NCBI RefSeq assembly: GCF_018138385.1 | Contig: NZ_JAGSIE010000009.1 | Location: 1 to 64,000, forward strand | From: Allobacillus saliphilus | GTDB lineage: Bacteria > Bacillota > Bacilli > Bacillales > Alkalibacillaceae | DNA length: 64,000 nucleotides | Reading direction: 5' to 3' | Part shown: piece after piece, positions 4,274 through 11,782 of the stretch | Layout of the letters: every line of letters starts with the position of its first letter | Numbering within the stretch: the first letter of the stretch is position 1 | Made by a program: the position numbers and the translations under genes | Notes under the pieces: model-generated | What the model saw: the letters and a program-made list of their open reading frames with translations, nothing else | Databases searched by the model: none | What the model was told of the DNA's origin: nothing

Positions 4274-4516
4274 ATGGGCACGATTTGGGTTGTATTAATT
4301 GCTCTTGCAACGTTGGTAATCGGGCTAATTTTAGGTTTCTTCATTGCTAGAAAGACAATGATGAATTACTTGAAGAAAAATCCGCCAATTAATGAGCAAA
4401 TGTTACGTACAATGATGATGCAAATGGGTCAGAAGCCATCTCAAAAGAAAATTAATCAAATGATGCGTGGCATGACACAACAAATGGAAAATCAAGACAA
4501 AAAGAAGAAAAAATAA
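4274..4516 (+). CDS. yneF: YneF, UPF0154 small membrane protein
   Basis: An 80-residue protein with a single N-terminal transmembrane helix ([21 protein letters not shown]) followed by a basic, Met-rich cytoplasmic tail ([20 protein letters not shown]) ending in a lysine run. This is the UPF0154/YneF signature. The biochemical role is unknown. AAGGAGG stands ten bases before the ATG. It lies between tkt and ccdA as in B. subtilis and has its own terminator. Confidence 0.93.
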
Positions 4517-4558: not shown

Positions 4559-4668
4559 GTCTATTTAATCGATCGTCATGAAACTGTCAATCCTTTTATT
4601 CTATATTTGGCGGTCGATCTGTTAATCTGAAAGTGGGTTAAAGTTTAGTTTGATTGGAGCGTGTGAGT

Positions 4669-5376
4669 ATGGTTGCGGACGTGAATATGTTCCTTGCATT
4701 TGGAGCAGGTTTTCTTTCGTTTATTTCACCATGTGTTTTACCGCTATATCCGGTATTCCTTTCCTATATTACTGGAATGAGTCTTGAAGAATTAAAAAAT
4801 GAAAAGGGTATGTTAAGAAAACGAAGTATGCTACATACACTCTTTTTCTTAATCGGTTTTTCATCCATTTTCATTATGCTCGGGTTTTCAGGATATGTAA
4901 TCGGAGATTTTCTCATTCAATATCGTGATTTAATTCGCCAAGTTGGAGCATTACTAATTATCTTTTTCGGATTTGTTATGTTAGGTGTGTTTAACTTTGA
5001 TTTCTTAATGAAAGAACGGAAAGTGACTTTCAAAAATCGTCCAGCAGGCTATTTGGGTTCCATTTTAATTGGTGCAGCTTTTTCAATGAGTTGGACACCG
5101 TGTACAGGACCAATTTTAGCAGCAGTTATTTCTTTGGCTTACACGAATCCTGATTCTGGTGTGCTTTTAATGTCCGCTTATTCATTAGGCTTTGCGATAC
5201 CGTTTTTCATTCTGTCATTCTTTATTGATCGGATGGGTTGGTTGAAACGAAACTCACAGAAAATCATGAGAATCGGTGGATACATCTTGATTTTCCTCGG
5301 AATCGCATTGTTTTTTGATTGGTTACGCATTTTGACAAATTACCTAGCAAACTTCTTTGGTTTCACTGGTTTTTAA
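4669..5376 (+). CDS. ccdA: Cytochrome c biogenesis protein CcdA
   Basis: A 235-residue integral membrane thiol-disulfide transporter of the DsbD/CcdA family with about six transmembrane helices. It passes reducing equivalents from cytosolic thioredoxin to the outside, where they reduce apocytochrome c cysteines through ResA-type thioredoxins. The two redox cysteines are in SFISPCVLPLYP and SMSWTPCTGPIL. An in-frame TTG at 4654 overlaps the ribosome-binding site, so the ATG at 4669 with GGAG nine bases upstream is preferred. It leads a group with the MrpB-like gene and ccdC; the thioredoxin-like gene at 11.2 kb is a possible partner. Confidence 0.93.
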   Translation: MVADVNMFLAFGAGFLSFISPCVLPLYPVFLSYITGMSLEELKNEKGMLRKRSMLHTLFFLIGFSSIFIMLGFSGYVIGDFLIQYRDLIRQVGALLIIFFGFVMLGVFNFDFLMKERKVTFKNRPAGYLGSILIGAAFSMSWTPCTGPILAAVISLAYTNPDSGVLLMSAYSLGFAIPFFILSFFIDRMGWLKRNSQKIMRIGGYILIFLGIALFFDWLRILTNYLANFFGFTGF

Positions 5377-5451
5377 GTCGAATTTGATTCTTATTAAGCA
5401 AGTATATTAAAATAAGATGTAGAACATATCATCTGAGGGAGTATTATACTG

Positions 5452-5907
5452 ATGAAAAATTATAATGATCTAATTTTACGTACAATGACACAGTTAATTG
5501 CCTTCATTTTATTAGGATTTTCTGTGTACTTGTTCTTCGCTGGTCATAATGCGCCGGGTGGCGGATTTATTGGCGGATTAATGACAGCAGCGGCATTCAT
5601 TCTCATGTTTATTACTTATGGATATGAAAACATGTCAAAAGTATTGCCGATTAATTTTCGTGCAATGTTGGCGATTGGCCTGTTAGTTGCGACGTTGTCA
5701 GGTATCGGAGCTTTCATTTTCGGCGAACCGTTTCTAACACAAACGTTTGGCTATTTTAACTTGCCAATAATGGGTAAAACAGAATTAGCAACTGCAATGA
5801 TTTTTGACTTAGGGGTTTACTTAACTGTTGTAGGTGTCACCATGACAATTATTTTAACAATCGCTACGGATCAAAAGGAAGATTCACAAGAACAGGCAGG
5901 GATGTAA
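5452..5907 (+). CDS. Orphan Na+/H+ antiporter subunit B (MnhB/MrpB-like)
   Basis: A 151-residue protein with four predicted membrane helices. The stretch LFFAGHNAPGGGFIGGLMTA is the hallmark of MnhB/MrpB, a membrane subunit of the multi-subunit Mrp sodium/proton antiporter, and the length matches the family. Normally mrpB lies in a six- or seven-gene mrpABCDEFG operon. Here no other mrp gene is in the neighbourhood. It sits 75 bases after ccdA and 4 bases before ccdC, where B. subtilis has the CheY-like yneI. It must therefore be co-transcribed with ccdC. It may serve a distant Mrp complex or have a separate role; the sequence does not decide. Confidence 0.88.
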   Translation: MKNYNDLILRTMTQLIAFILLGFSVYLFFAGHNAPGGGFIGGLMTAAAFILMFITYGYENMSKVLPINFRAMLAIGLLVATLSGIGAFIFGEPFLTQTFGYFNLPIMGKTELATAMIFDLGVYLTVVGVTMTIILTIATDQKEDSQEQAGM

Positions 5908-5911
5908 GGTT

Positions 5912-6388
5912 ATGAAAACGTTTTTTGTCATTGCTGCATCCATTGTTGCTTTTTTCATGGCGATTGGAATGGTTTTTGTTCGTATGAAGGCAGCAAATAG
6001 ACCGACATCAGTGAAACGGATCGTATTGCCTCCATTGTTTATGAGTACAGGAGCATTAATGTTTGTTTTTCCATATTTCAGGGTTGAATGGATTCAAGTA
6101 GCTGAAGCAATAGGTGTTGGGATTATATTTTCGCTATTTCTTATTTTCACATCGAATTTCGAATATAAAGACGGAGATATTTATTTAAAGCCTTCTAAAA
6201 TGTTTCCGATTATTTTAGTAGTACTATTGGTCGTTCGACTTGTTACAAAACAATATATGGGCCAATACATTGAAATAGGTGAGTTAGCGGGGATGTTTTA
6301 CTTGCTTGCATTCGGCATGTTATTCACATGGCGGATGGTCATGCTCATCAAATTTTTAAGCTTTCAAAAACGAATAGTACCAAAATAA
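5912..6388 (+). CDS. ccdC: CcdC family protein (YneJ, DUF1453)
   Basis: A 158-residue membrane protein with about five helices, resembling YneJ/CcdC of B. subtilis (conserved RIVLPPLFMSTGALMFVFP and a cytosolic DGDIYLKPSKMFP loop). In B. subtilis it lies with ccdA in the cytochrome c maturation cluster, although its biochemical role is not clear. The start follows the stop of the MrpB-like gene by four bases, indicating translational coupling. A strong two-way terminator follows. Confidence 0.85.
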   Translation: MKTFFVIAASIVAFFMAIGMVFVRMKAANRPTSVKRIVLPPLFMSTGALMFVFPYFRVEWIQVAEAIGVGIIFSLFLIFTSNFEYKDGDIYLKPSKMFPIILVVLLVVRLVTKQYMGQYIEIGELAGMFYLLAFGMLFTWRMVMLIKFLSFQKRIVPK

Positions 6389-6429
6389 AAGGTAAAGAGT
6401 TGCAAATTGCATGCAGCTCTTTACCTTTT
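6387..6429. terminator. Bidirectional terminator between ccdC and yneK
   Basis: AAAAGGTAAAGAG (6387-6399) pairs with CTCTTTACCTTTT (6417-6429). A-rich and T-rich flanks allow use in both directions; it overlaps both stop codons. Confidence 0.9.
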
Positions 6430-6856
6430 ATATTTCTATTAAATGTTCATATCGGTTAAAATCGATATTTTTTTCTTTAAGCGTTTTCACCAAAAACTTA
6501 TGGTCCCTTTTTGGTGTAGCTTTAATATATCCCTCGATCATAACGTCTAAAGTGATTTTTTCTTTACGTCTTTTTAGCGCTAACTCGGCAATCTTTGCAG
6601 CAATTTTTTGTTTCGCGACGTCTCTGAATAATTGAGGGACAGGCTCTACCAGTTCGTTCAGAAGATTCTTTGCATCGTCATCCCACATATGGAGAGATTC
6701 ATCGATATAGTATTCTTCCCAATCAATAATTGACTTCCCATCTGCTTTAGGCATCTTCTTCAAAAACTTGCGGAACATGAAGAATCCGCCGATTCCCATT
6801 AAAACGACTAACAAAGTTGTCCAACCGATAATAAGCAATGCAATCAATGTATCCAA
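6428..6856 (-). CDS. yneK: YneK, DUF2621 membrane-anchored protein
   Basis: A 142-residue protein with an N-terminal transmembrane helix (IALLIIGWTTLLVVLMGIGG) and a charged cytoplasmic domain containing DWEEYYIDESLHMWDDDAKN. This is the DUF2621/YneK family, of identical length in B. subtilis, where it also lies convergent to ccdC. Function unknown. Confidence 0.9.
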   Translation of the reverse strand: MDTLIALLIIGWTTLLVVLMGIGGFFMFRKFLKKMPKADGKSIIDWEEYYIDESLHMWDDDAKNLLNELVEPVPQLFRDVAKQKIAAKIAELALKRRKEKITLDVMIEGYIKATPKRDHKFLVKTLKEKNIDFNRYEHLIEI

Positions 6857-8307: not shown

Positions 8308-11019
8308 ATGATGGTAGACAATAATGCTTTTAATGCCAAGAAACAATTTGAATTGAATGGCAAAACGTACAATTATTATCACATGAAAGCATTGGAAGAA
8401 AAAGGTCTAGGAAAGATCTCTGAATTACCTTTTTCAATCCGTGTCCTACTTGAATCTGTATTGAGACAGTATGATGGACACGTCATCAAGGATGAGCATG
8501 TTGAAAAATTAGCTCAGTGGGTGAAAGGTGAAAAAGTGGATGTTCCATTTAAACCTTCACGTGTCATTTTACAAGACTTTACAGGTGTTCCAGCTGTAGT
8601 AGATTTGGCTTCTTTGCGTAAAGCAATGGTAGATATGGGTGGAAGTCCTGACCAAATTAATCCAGAAGTACCTGTAGATCTAGTAATTGACCACTCCGTA
8701 CAAGTAGATGCTTACGGTACACCTGATGCACTTCGCGTTAACATGGAAATGGAATTTGACCGTAACATGGAGCGTTATGAATTCTTGCATTGGGCTCAGA
8801 AAGCTTTTGACAACTACCGCGCTGTTCCACCAGCAACAGGTATTGTTCACCAAGTAAACTTAGAGTACCTAGCAAACGTCGTTCATGAAATCGAAAAAGA
8901 TGACGGTACGTATGACGCATTCCCTGACACTTTATTCGGTACTGACTCACATACAACGATGATCAACGGTCTAGGTGTACTAGGCTGGGGTGTCGGTGGT
9001 ATTGAAGCTGAAGCAGGAATGTTAGGTCAGCCTTCATATTTCCCAGCACCTGAAGTAATCGGTGTTAAACTAACAGGTGAATTCCCAGAAGGTGCAACTG
9101 CAACTGACTTAGCACTAAAAGTTACACAAGTGCTACGTGAGAAAAACGTTGTTGGTAAATTCGTAGAATACTTCGGAGATGGCTTAACGTCTATGCCACT
9201 TGCTGACCGTGCAACGATCTCCAACATGGCACCTGAATATGGTGCGACATGTGGTTTCTTCCCAGTTGATGAAGAAGCACTTAAATATTTACGTTTGACA
9301 GGTCGTTCAGAAGAGCATATCGCTCTTGTAAAAGAATATTTACAGAAAAACGATCTATTCTATACACCGAATCAAGAAGATCCTAAATTCACAGACTTAG
9401 TTGAAATCGATCTTTCTGAAATTGAGCCAAATTTATCTGGACCAAAACGTCCTCAAGATTTGATCAGACTTTCAGATATGAAACAATCATTCAACAAATC
9501 TCTAACTGCTCCACAAGGTAACCAAGGGTTCGGATTGAGTGATGAAGAGGTTGCTAAAGAAGCTGTCGTTAAATTTAACGATGGTACTGAAGCAACAATG
9601 AAAACTGGTGCATTGGCGATCGCAGCAATTACATCTTGTACAAACACGTCTAACCCACATGTTATGTTAGGTGCTGGTTTACTTGCGAAGAATGCTGTTG
9701 AAAAAGGATTAAATGTTCCTGCGTATGTAAAAACTTCATTGGCGCCAGGTTCAAAAGTTGTAACAAACTACCTTGAAAATTCTGGTTTGATGGAATACTT
9801 AAACCAGTTAGGATTTAACTTGGTTGGTTACGGATGTACAACTTGTATCGGAAACTCTGGTCCATTATTGCCAGAAATTGAAAAAGCAATTGCTGATTCT
9901 GACTTAACTGTTGCTTCTGTTCTTTCTGGTAACCGTAACTTTGAAGGACGTATCCACCCACTTGTGCGTGCGAACTACTTGGCTTCACCACCATTAGTTG
10001 TTGCATATGCACTTGCTGGTACAGTTGATATTGATTTGATGAATGAACCATTAGGTCAAGATCGCGAAGGAAACGATGTATTCTTTAAAGATATCTGGCC
10101 AGCATCTGATGAAATTCAGAAACAAATTGATGCAGTTGTCACACCGGAAATCTTCCGTAAAGAATATGAATCGGTTTTCAATTCCAACGAAAAGTGGAAT
10201 CAAATTGAAACAACGGATCAGCCGTTATATGATTTTGATGAGAATTCAACGTATATTCAAAATCCACCATTTTTCGAAAACATGGCGAAAGATCCAGAAA
10301 GTATTAGACCACTTAGTGGACTACGCGTCATCGGTAAGTTTGGTGACTCTGTAACAACAGACCACATCTCACCAGCTGGTGCTATTCCAAAAGATATGCC
10401 AGCGGGTCAGTATTTGATGGAAAAAGATGTTTCACCACGTAACTTTAACTCTTACGGTTCTCGTCGTGGTAACCATGAAATCATGATGAGAGGTACATTC
10501 GGAAATATCCGTATTCGTAACGAGATTGCCAACGGAAAAGAAGGCGGTTATACAACGTACTGGCCAACTGGTGAAGTTATGCCTATTTATGATGCAGCTA
10601 TGCGTTACCAAGAAGATGGTACAGGCTTAGTTGTCATCGCAGGTAGTGACTACGGAATGGGAAGTTCACGTGACTGGGCTGCCAAAGGTACAGATCTACT
10701 AGGTATTAAAACGGTCATTGCTGAAAGCTTTGAAAGAATTCACCGTTCTAACCTAGTAATGATGGGCGTATTGCCACTTCAGTTCCAAAAAGGTGATACA
10801 GTAGAATCTCTTGGCCTAACTGGTAAAGAAACAATTGATGTCGACGTTCGCGAAGACGTTAAACCAGGAAGCCTTGTAAAAGTAACAGCTACTGATGAAG
10901 ACGGCAAGAAGACTGAATTCGAAGTCGTTGCACGTTTCGATAGTGACGTTGAGTTAGATTATTACCGTCATGGTGGTATCCTACAACTCGTGTTACGTAA
11001 AAAACTAGAAACAGTGTAA
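8308..11019 (+). CDS. acnA: Aconitate hydratase
   Basis: A 903-residue [4Fe-4S] aconitase of the AcnA/IRP1 type (citB in B. subtilis). It interconverts citrate and isocitrate in the TCA cycle; apo-forms in this family can bind RNA. The cluster ligands are Cys444 ([12 protein letters not shown]), Cys510 and Cys513 ([12 protein letters not shown]). [22 protein letters not shown] and the C-terminal swivel domain with [16 protein letters not shown] complete the active site. AAGGGGG stands before the ATG. It is a single gene with its own terminator and uses somewhat more optimal codons than its neighbours, as expected for a highly expressed protein. Confidence 0.98.
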
Positions 11020-11034
11020 AGATAACTATAAAAC

Positions 11035-11072
11035 AAACCCGAAAGTCACATTGATGACTTTCGGGTTTTATT
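11035..11072 (+). terminator. Terminator after acnA
   Basis: AAACCCGAAAGTCA (11035-11048) pairs perfectly with TGACTTTCGGGTTT (11055-11068), then a T-rich stretch. Confidence 0.92.
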
Positions 11073-11203
11073 TTGCGTTAGAAAATCGTTAGAAACTACA
11101 TACTTCACAGTTTTGTTGTCTTCCAAGTTACTGATAAACCATTTCTTTTGATATGATGGAATAAAATGATTGATATTCGTTTACATGAGGAGGAAGCCCC
11201 TAG

Positions 11204-11782
11204 ATGTTGGTCAAAAGACTAATCGCACTTAGCGTCATCATTACACTGAGCGGAGTAATTATATTTAATATTCTCGAAGATAACAAGAGTAATCAAAACG
11301 ATCCTGAAGATGGAATGATGTACATTCAGCCAGAAGGAATGGACGTGGACACAACGGATATTGAAGTCGGTGATGTACCGCCGAATTTCCAGCTAAAAAC
11401 GCTGGATGGACAAACAAAACAATTGCAGGATTTTAAAGGTAAAAAGGTTTTCGTGAATTTCTGGGCAACATGGTGTCCACCTTGCCGTAAAGAAATGCCT
11501 CATATGCAAGAAATTCAAGACAAGTATGAAAATGTAGAGATCGTTGCGGTGAATGCATTGCACTCCGAGTCGTCAGTTGATCAAGTACGTGAATTCGTTG
11601 AGGAAAGAGATCTTACCTTTCCAATTTTATTAGACGAATCTGGAGAAGTAACGTTGCGTTATCAGGCGATGAGTATGCCCGTCACTTATTTTGTGAATTC
11701 TGAAGGTGTCATTCAACTTCCTAAAAAAATTGGTCCGATGACTTATGAAGAGATGGAAGAAAAAATAAAACAACTAGATTAA
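11204..11782 (+). CDS. yneN: Membrane-anchored thiol-disulfide oxidoreductase (ResA/YneN type)
   Basis: A 192-residue protein with an N-terminal signal anchor (LIALSVIITLSGVIIFNIL) and a TlpA/ResA-like thioredoxin fold outside the membrane. The redox motif is CPPC within FVNFWATWCPPCRKEMP, and the cis-proline loop is SMPVTYFV. Proteins of this group reduce exported disulfides and take electrons from CcdA; ResA acts on apocytochrome c. Position after aconitase matches B. subtilis yneN, hence the symbol; the exact substrate is not shown by the sequence. Confidence 0.85.
   Translation: MLVKRLIALSVIITLSGVIIFNILEDNKSNQNDPEDGMMYIQPEGMDVDTTDIEVGDVPPNFQLKTLDGQTKQLQDFKGKKVFVNFWATWCPPCRKEMPHMQEIQDKYENVEIVAVNALHSESSVDQVREFVEERDLTFPILLDESGEVTLRYQAMSMPVTYFVNSEGVIQLPKKIGPMTYEEMEEKIKQLD

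Follow-up and report, generated by a model that had tools for sequence, protein, structure and literature searches.

Why should the gene for one subunit of the Mrp antiporter, mrpB, stand between ccdA and ccdC? The question is raised by a stretch of 64,000 nt from Allobacillus saliphilus (contig NZ_JAGSIE010000009.1, positions 1 to 64,000), which we call the window. According to the account in PMC7419157, Mrp is usually described as encoded by a single operon. An earlier note on the window, made from the sequence only, had taken the gene for an orphan inside a cytochrome c maturation operon, and had proposed either that it supplements a distant Mrp complex or that a lone MrpB fold has been recruited for cytochrome c maturation. 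In our reading the gene is very probably a relocated mrpB, the only one available to a Group-1-like Mrp cation/H+ antiporter whose distant complex it serves in trans.

Genome samples and comparisons

Four collections were considered: a family sample of 22 genomes, an order sample of 120 genomes taken evenly, a class sample of 200 genomes and, among the loci of named nearest relatives, the best 80 of 234. We considered as ccd-type any genome or locus in which mrpB lies at the ccd locus, and as operon-type any in which it lies in the mrp operon. As controls we used 20 ccdC loci from genomes not of the ccd type, precisely 15 operon-type genomes, 4 without Mrp and the genome G125 described below. 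On the operon side, 20 of the 65 operon-type genomes of the order sample were compared at the level of the locus. In all the locus comparisons the gene edges are the edges of tblastn matches and not those of curated genes. The neighbour genes read here carry the presumed labels YqeG, YqeH, SigK, MtnN, GreA, YneI and Tkt. The neighbour-gene tree was built from CcdA, CcdC and DUF2621 with 31 ccd-type and 20 control rows, leaving out two ccd-type genomes without CcdC (G078 and G112).

Identity of the gene and its surroundings

The reading frame starts with an ATG and its product matches the Pfam model MnhB (PF04039) with 131.2 bits against a cut-off of 22.5, covering model positions 1-127 of 127, and the NCBIfam model PRK12573.1 with 178.1 bits against a cut-off of 152; hence the full-length MrpB with its hallmark, as first read from the letters, is borne out. 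An AlphaFold model of the product (pLDDT 79) aligned with the solved chain 7qru_B with Z 15.8 and 3.6 A over 137 residues (51% identity) and with 6z16_B with Z 14.8, and structural matches outside the Mrp/MBH/MBS families had Z values of at most 6.1. As modelled, the fold is that of the solved MrpB chains.

In B. pseudofirmus MrpB, P37 is assigned to the stability of the complex and F41 to a putative Na+ exit tunnel, in the accounts of PMC5703873 and PMC9568556. The corresponding P35 is kept in 93 of 95 ccd-type MrpB rows (a set that includes some genomes twice), and F39 and the acidic D119 in all 95; in the operon-type rows the same three positions are kept in 40/40, 40/40 and 35/40, respectively. 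The mrpB gene is under purifying selection, with dN/dS values of 0-0.07 in 7 of 9 pairs, the remaining two pairs being one identical and one saturated. Low values were also obtained where ccdA is lacking at the locus (0.017 in Salimicrobium; 0.043 in Thalassobacillus, with dS > 1). The matched parts of mrpB, ccdA and ccdC are identical to those of Allobacillus salarius SKP4-8.

Table 1. Features of the mrpB locus in the window and, in the last row, at related loci
Feature	Position	Strand	Basis and remarks
yneF, conserved upstream flank	4274..4516	+	family search
ccdA (DsbD_TM family, PF02683), upstream neighbour	4654..5376	+	domain match; the ATG at 4669 is also a possible start
Putative ribosome-binding site GAGGGAG of mrpB	5435..5441	+	read from the sequence
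mrpB, sole MnhB-domain gene found in the genome	5452..5907	+	151 aa; Pfam, NCBIfam, model fold
P35-GGG-F39 of the MnhB/MrpB hallmark	5554..5568	+	alignment to 7qru_B; P35/F39 correspond to P37/F41 of B. pseudofirmus MrpB
D119, acidic residue of the last helix	5806..5808	+	aligned with D121 of 7qru_B
ccdC (PF07301 'CcdC protein'), downstream neighbour	5912..6388	+	Pfam, 180.7 bits
Intrinsic-terminator-like hairpin behind ccdC, 20 pairs	6385..6431	+	consensus match only
DUF2621 gene, conserved convergent flank	6428..6856	-	family search
Second CcdA-like gene	L030:7711-8400, L034:7727-8416, L044:7742-8254, L059:7692-8405		

The distances of 75 nt from ccdA to mrpB and of 4 nt from mrpB to ccdC were confirmed. 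The label of cytochrome c maturation operon did not hold, in that ccdA and ccdC form here a small locus and not a full operon of that kind; ResB lies about 134 kb away on the same contig (C53), which also carries a transketolase gene. The window scan returned no terminator-like site between ccdA and mrpB, and the hairpin behind ccdC, judged from its sequence, is the likely end of a ccdA-mrpB-ccdC transcription unit, which together suggest a single transcript. Ahead of mrpB there is one promoter-like site (5384-5413), but the scan that returned it performed at chance level (13 sites versus 11.1 expected), so that an independent expression of mrpB is neither shown nor excluded by it.

The mrp operon of the same genome

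In the draft genome (80 contigs, 98% complete), a whole-genome search for MnhB gave a single match, the mrpB of the window. Searches for the proton-antiporter domain and for MnhE gave one mrp locus, with all the matches on another contig (C69), in agreement with the earlier remark that no other mrp gene is near. There the order is mrpA-C-D-E-F-G, with mrpC, mrpF and mrpG named by their place and by similarity among loci and not by family search, and mrpB is cleanly missing: mrpC begins 1 nt after the mrpA stop, which leaves no room for mrpB. The MrpA of this genome has 781 aa and no MnhB match. All seven Mrp subunits are therefore encoded, A and B as separate proteins, in two places and not in one seven-gene cluster.

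With the sole MnhB in the window and an operon lacking exactly this gene, the apparent orphan is the missing piece of the operon. The earlier idea of a supplement to a distant Mrp complex pointed the right way but said too little: the gene is no supplement, as no other MrpB was found in the genome to serve the operon that lacks mrpB. Likewise, the search then advised for a complete mrpA-G operon with its own mrpB yielded mrpACDEFG and no second mrpB.

Distribution of the split arrangement

Every genome of the family sample has exactly one MnhB, located at the ccd locus (22/22 for both). Among the best 80 of the 234 named loci, 63 are ccd-type and belong to Allobacillus, Alkalibacillus, Filobacillus, Aquisalibacillus, Piscibacillus, Tenuibacillus, Halobacillus, Thalassobacillus, Salimicrobium, Gracilibacillus, Ornithinibacillus, Oceanobacillus, Virgibacillus, Salirhabdus, Pseudalkalibacillus and others; the 17 that lie in an mrp operon comprise 14 of Paenibacillus and one each of Halalkalibacter, Halalkalibacterium and Bacillus sp. 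As a separate observation, Paenibacillus fonticola (L101:3544-6411) has mrpA and mrpB as one frame of 956 aa, a Group-2-like fusion, while in the other Paenibacillus considered here they are separate genes.

MnhB and MnhE were both present or both absent in 120 of the 120 order-sample genomes, and occurred in the same 99 with 113 matches each. Precisely, there are 79 MnhB-MnhE pairs at a distance of 1.6-2.5 kb, and the remaining 34 MnhB and 34 MnhE matches are unpaired, single copies in the same 34 genomes. Mrp is thus split in 34 of the 99 Mrp-bearing genomes, and in 33 of these mrpB lies at the ccd locus, over 13 family codes. These counts provide the survey of ccd neighbourhoods that had been proposed; none of the 20 control loci contains mrpB. 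In all 33 ccd-type genomes, window included, the mrpA stop is separated from mrpC by -1 to 7 nt.

In the class sample 114 matches are paired and the split is confined to the genome of the window, G033 and G078, all of the order. All the 74 class-sample genomes outside the order that have both domains have every MnhB and MnhE match paired, and on this ground we took the operon as the older state, the trees being unrooted. Elsewhere in this sample, the genome G170 carries an MnhB remnant with an inner stop (C1:665053-665316) and no MnhE, and looks like a lost Mrp system.

MnhE was present in all the ccd-type genomes examined (33/33 in the order sample and 17/17 of the named ones). A second MnhE was found in 3 of the 17 named genomes (Oceanobacillus sp., Gracilibacillus timonensis and Virgibacillus sp.), each of which combines a split operon with a second one that has all seven genes, mrpB included. 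This fits the two mrp clusters that PMC5703873 reports for O. iheyensis, and it shows that in these three genomes mrpB at the ccd locus has survived beside a complete second operon.

The one split genome of the order sample with mrpB away from the ccd locus, G125 (family f35; L137:3541-4020, L170), is an independent second split: its mrpACDEFG lacks mrpB and leaves 69 nt between mrpA and mrpC. Its MrpB (160 aa, 30% identity) is divergent, with a degenerate hallmark and E replacing the conserved D, and its gene, on visual inspection, is flanked by a peptidase-like gene and a GTPase-like one.

The site presumably left by mrpB

The split operons of the order sample, that of G125 among them, all lie beside two genes that we take to be yqeG and yqeH (34/34: the window's own genome, 24 of the other 33 within the first stretches and 9 within wider ones), and so do those of the 17 named genomes. 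In the latter the spacing from mrpA to mrpC is -1 to 2 nt in 16 cases and 18 nt, at a match edge, in one. The same place is occupied by a complete mrpABCDEFG in 5 of the 20 operon-type loci compared in the order sample and in one of the 17 named ones, that of Halalkalibacter hemicellulosilyticus; operons with mrpB and operons lacking it can thus be compared at one address. Four of the five fall within the Halalkalibacter group of the MrpACDEFG tree and one, G094, outside it. For the remaining operon-type loci no yqeG/yqeH was seen within flanks that are in some cases short.

The mrpB stop and the mrpC start share one base in 18 of 20 operon-type loci; a relocation would therefore have exchanged a coupling of mrpB with mrpC for one of mrpA with mrpC. 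We saw no excision footprint at the MrpA C-terminus in 12 split and 11 operon rows. The difference of about 20 residues in length between split and operon MrpA is internal, near residues 320 and 496 (L005 numbering); in the alignment, MrpA of the split lineage lacks about 13 and about 6 columns that most operon-type MrpA have, a mark of the lineage.

The site presumably entered by mrpB

At the control loci the reading is ccdA-yneI-ccdC in 13 of 20; of the other seven, three contain both ccd genes and gave no yneI match, in one ccdA is some 2 kb away, and in three no ccdA was seen in the stretch. The CheY-like gene that we take to be yneI is present in 13 of 33 ccd-type loci, always behind mrpB, and was not found in 20, the window among them. 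As mrpB comes after ccdA and before any surviving yneI, it appears to have been inserted between the two. The claim that mrpB stands in place of yneI must consequently be corrected: there was no replacement, and yneI was lost later in Allobacillus.

The link with the ccd genes is close. Both ccdA and ccdC are at the mrpB locus, on its two sides, in 29 of 33 order-sample loci, ccdA adjoins mrpB in 31, and the gap between ccdA and mrpB is 18-91 nt in 30 of these 31 (244 nt in one). It is not obligatory, however. Beside mrpB, ccdA was not found at 9 of 63 named and 2 of 33 order-sample loci (Salimicrobium, some Thalassobacillus, Gracilibacillus halophilus and family f37), nor was ccdC at 2 of 63 and 2 of 33, the latter being the genomes G078 and G112, where CcdC gave no match genome-wide; Gracilibacillus halophilus (L067) has neither of the two at its mrpB locus. 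A DsbD_TM protein and ResB were found somewhere in 17 of 17 genomes checked, hence cytochrome c maturation itself is retained, and the cases above argue against a dependence of mrpB on its neighbours and not for a loss of cytochrome c.

Two side observations concern the same region. In Filobacillus, Aquisalibacillus and Piscibacillus, another CcdA-like gene, with 39-43% identity, lies downstream of ccdC (Table 1). In Piscibacillus salipiscarius JCM 13188 (L044), the matches of ccdA (5235-5927) and DUF2621 (10870-11254) are in several pieces, owing to sequencing errors or to decay.

Trees and evolutionary distances

The 33 ccd-type MrpB form one clade (100/96), the outcome that the earlier note had asked a tree to decide, and MrpACDEFG of the same 33 genomes form one clade as well (SH-aLRT 100). 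The two trees differ in where this clade joins the rest. An acquisition of MrpB from a Paenibacillus-like lineage, towards which the MrpB tree leans, was considered and set aside, as the placement given by MrpACDEFG was not rejected (AU p 0.206).

In the tree of CcdA, CcdC and DUF2621, which contains one very long row (G033), the ccd-type genomes are not one clade; four changes are needed, at least two of them forced by the starred branches. Strict vertical descent by host is contradicted by this tree, and later transfers or replacements must be added to a single relocation. Family f3 falls among operon-type Bacillus-like lineages, and f2, f25 and f35 fall among ccd-type families. Since the mrp operon of f3 keeps the yqeG/yqeH address, it seems likelier that whole operons later replaced split systems than that two unlinked loci were transferred.

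Mirror-tree correlations of the MrpB distances over 27 genomes, given as coefficients without p-value, were 0.80 with MrpD, 0.77 with MrpA, 0.72 with both MrpF and CcdA and 0.70 with MrpE, and lower with MrpC (0.61), DUF2621 (0.58), MrpG (0.57) and CcdC (0.54). With MrpA/C/D held, the value drops to 0.12 for CcdA and to -0.02 for CcdC; with CcdA held, it stays at 0.51 for MrpD and 0.42 for MrpA. The unconditioned value of CcdA, as well as its place beside mrpB in nearly all the loci, would also be predicted by a ccd-linked role.

Weighing of the explanations

One ancient relocation is the best reading of these data. In one ancestor of many Bacillales families, mrpB would have left an mrpABCDEFG operon beside yqeG/yqeH and entered the ccd locus between ccdA and yneI, and the mrp operon would have closed up, with mrpC again abutting mrpA. 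MrpB would since be translated from the ccd transcript, insert as a four-helix protein and join MrpACDEFG in trans, with the contacts of the solved complexes and, presumably, in an active antiporter. In those complexes, as described in PMC9568556 and PMC7419157, MrpB lines the C-terminal domain of MrpA as well as MrpC, MrpF and MrpG, and touches MrpE of the other protomer. The key residues, the dN/dS values, the distance correlations and the persistence of mrpB without ccdA or ccdC all lead us to read MrpB as a normal subunit.

A further explanation keeps MrpB in Mrp and adds that its place on the ccd transcript is selected, tying Mrp assembly to the biogenesis of the respiratory chain. The linkage has outlived a divergence that spans 13 family codes in the order sample, and the terminator-like site of the window lies behind ccdC and not between ccdA and mrpB; furthermore, PMC5703873 places MrpB of B. 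pseudofirmus in an MrpABCD subcomplex, so that its dose could gate assembly. However, operon inertia accounts for the same pattern, and in several genera ccdA is gone upstream with mrpB left in place. We consider such a coupling possible but doubtful. Its stronger form, which we regard as unlikely and offer tentatively, makes MrpB a limiting, separately regulated subunit whose supply from the ccd transcript licenses a stored MrpACDEFG core while the respiratory chain is built; if true, cation/H+ antiport capacity would track the supply of proton-motive force in these Bacillales.

Recruitment of a lone MrpB fold for cytochrome c maturation, for instance to provide CcdA/CcdC with ions or protons instead of working in an antiporter, would agree with the position between the two genes and with the short spacing behind ccdA. 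Against it, this is the only MrpB found where the mrp operon is otherwise complete; mrpB persists at loci without ccdA or ccdC and, among the ccd-type genomes examined, never without MnhE; and its distances follow those of MrpA and MrpD, not of CcdC. This second proposal of the earlier note is therefore very improbable. A recent, surplus or decaying duplicate, for which nothing speaks beyond the odd place of the gene, is refuted by the sequence data: the copy is the sole one found, evolves under constraint within an old clade over 13 family codes and has no inner stop in the MnhB matches of the family and order samples, and of the 17 named genomes only three have a second MnhE, where a complete operon brings its own mrpB.

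Implications

The Mrp genes of a large group of Bacillus relatives appear to be shared between two distant loci, and the arrangement with mrpB apart, opposite to the usual one, has lasted in at least 13 families. The split genera include names that speak of salt or alkali, where Mrp should matter. They offer a natural experiment on the extent to which a large membrane complex depends on operon order for its assembly. In practice, annotation may take mrpACDEFG as incomplete or as a fused Group 2 system, and cloning the operon alone from a split species would provide six subunits. A split Mrp would also escape shotgun antiporter screens in E. coli KNabc, as no single insert carries it. One species used in a screen of the KNabc type according to PMC5379678, Halobacillus andaensis, has a split Mrp (L073 = L134, L167).

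Comparison with known Mrp systems

In the open-licence literature searched we found no description of an mrpB at the ccd locus or of a split mrp. As PMC5703873 defines the three Mrp groups, none of them covers the case in which a single subunit gene stands far from the cluster at a conserved place. Group 1, with seven mrp genes in one cluster, is described there for many Bacillus spp.; Allobacillus resembles it in that all seven subunits are encoded, MrpA is unfused and MrpB is close to that of B. pseudofirmus (51% identity to 7qru_B over 137 residues), and differs from it in that mrpB is in another locus and the operon reads mrpACDEFG. With Group 2 (mrpA'CDEFG with an A-B fusion, as in Pseudomonas, Vibrio and the Dietzia complex 7d3u) it shares the six-gene order A-C-D-E-F-G and is easily confused, but its MrpA of 781 aa has no MnhB and its MrpB is a separate protein. 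Group 3 clusters have an irregular order, such as mrpCDCDEFGBB of cyanobacteria (PMC5703873), and the Allobacillus order likewise departs from mrpABCDEFG; in Group 3, however, each subunit gene is in the cluster, whereas here one lies at a distant, conserved site.

As for the site itself, it resembles the ccdA-yneI-ccdC locus of Bacillales in its flanks ccdA, ccdC, DUF2621 and often yneF, and differs from it in having mrpB behind ccdA and, in 20 of 33 ccd-type loci, no yneI found. The parts are ordinary, and the genetic architecture that joins them is unusual and conserved.
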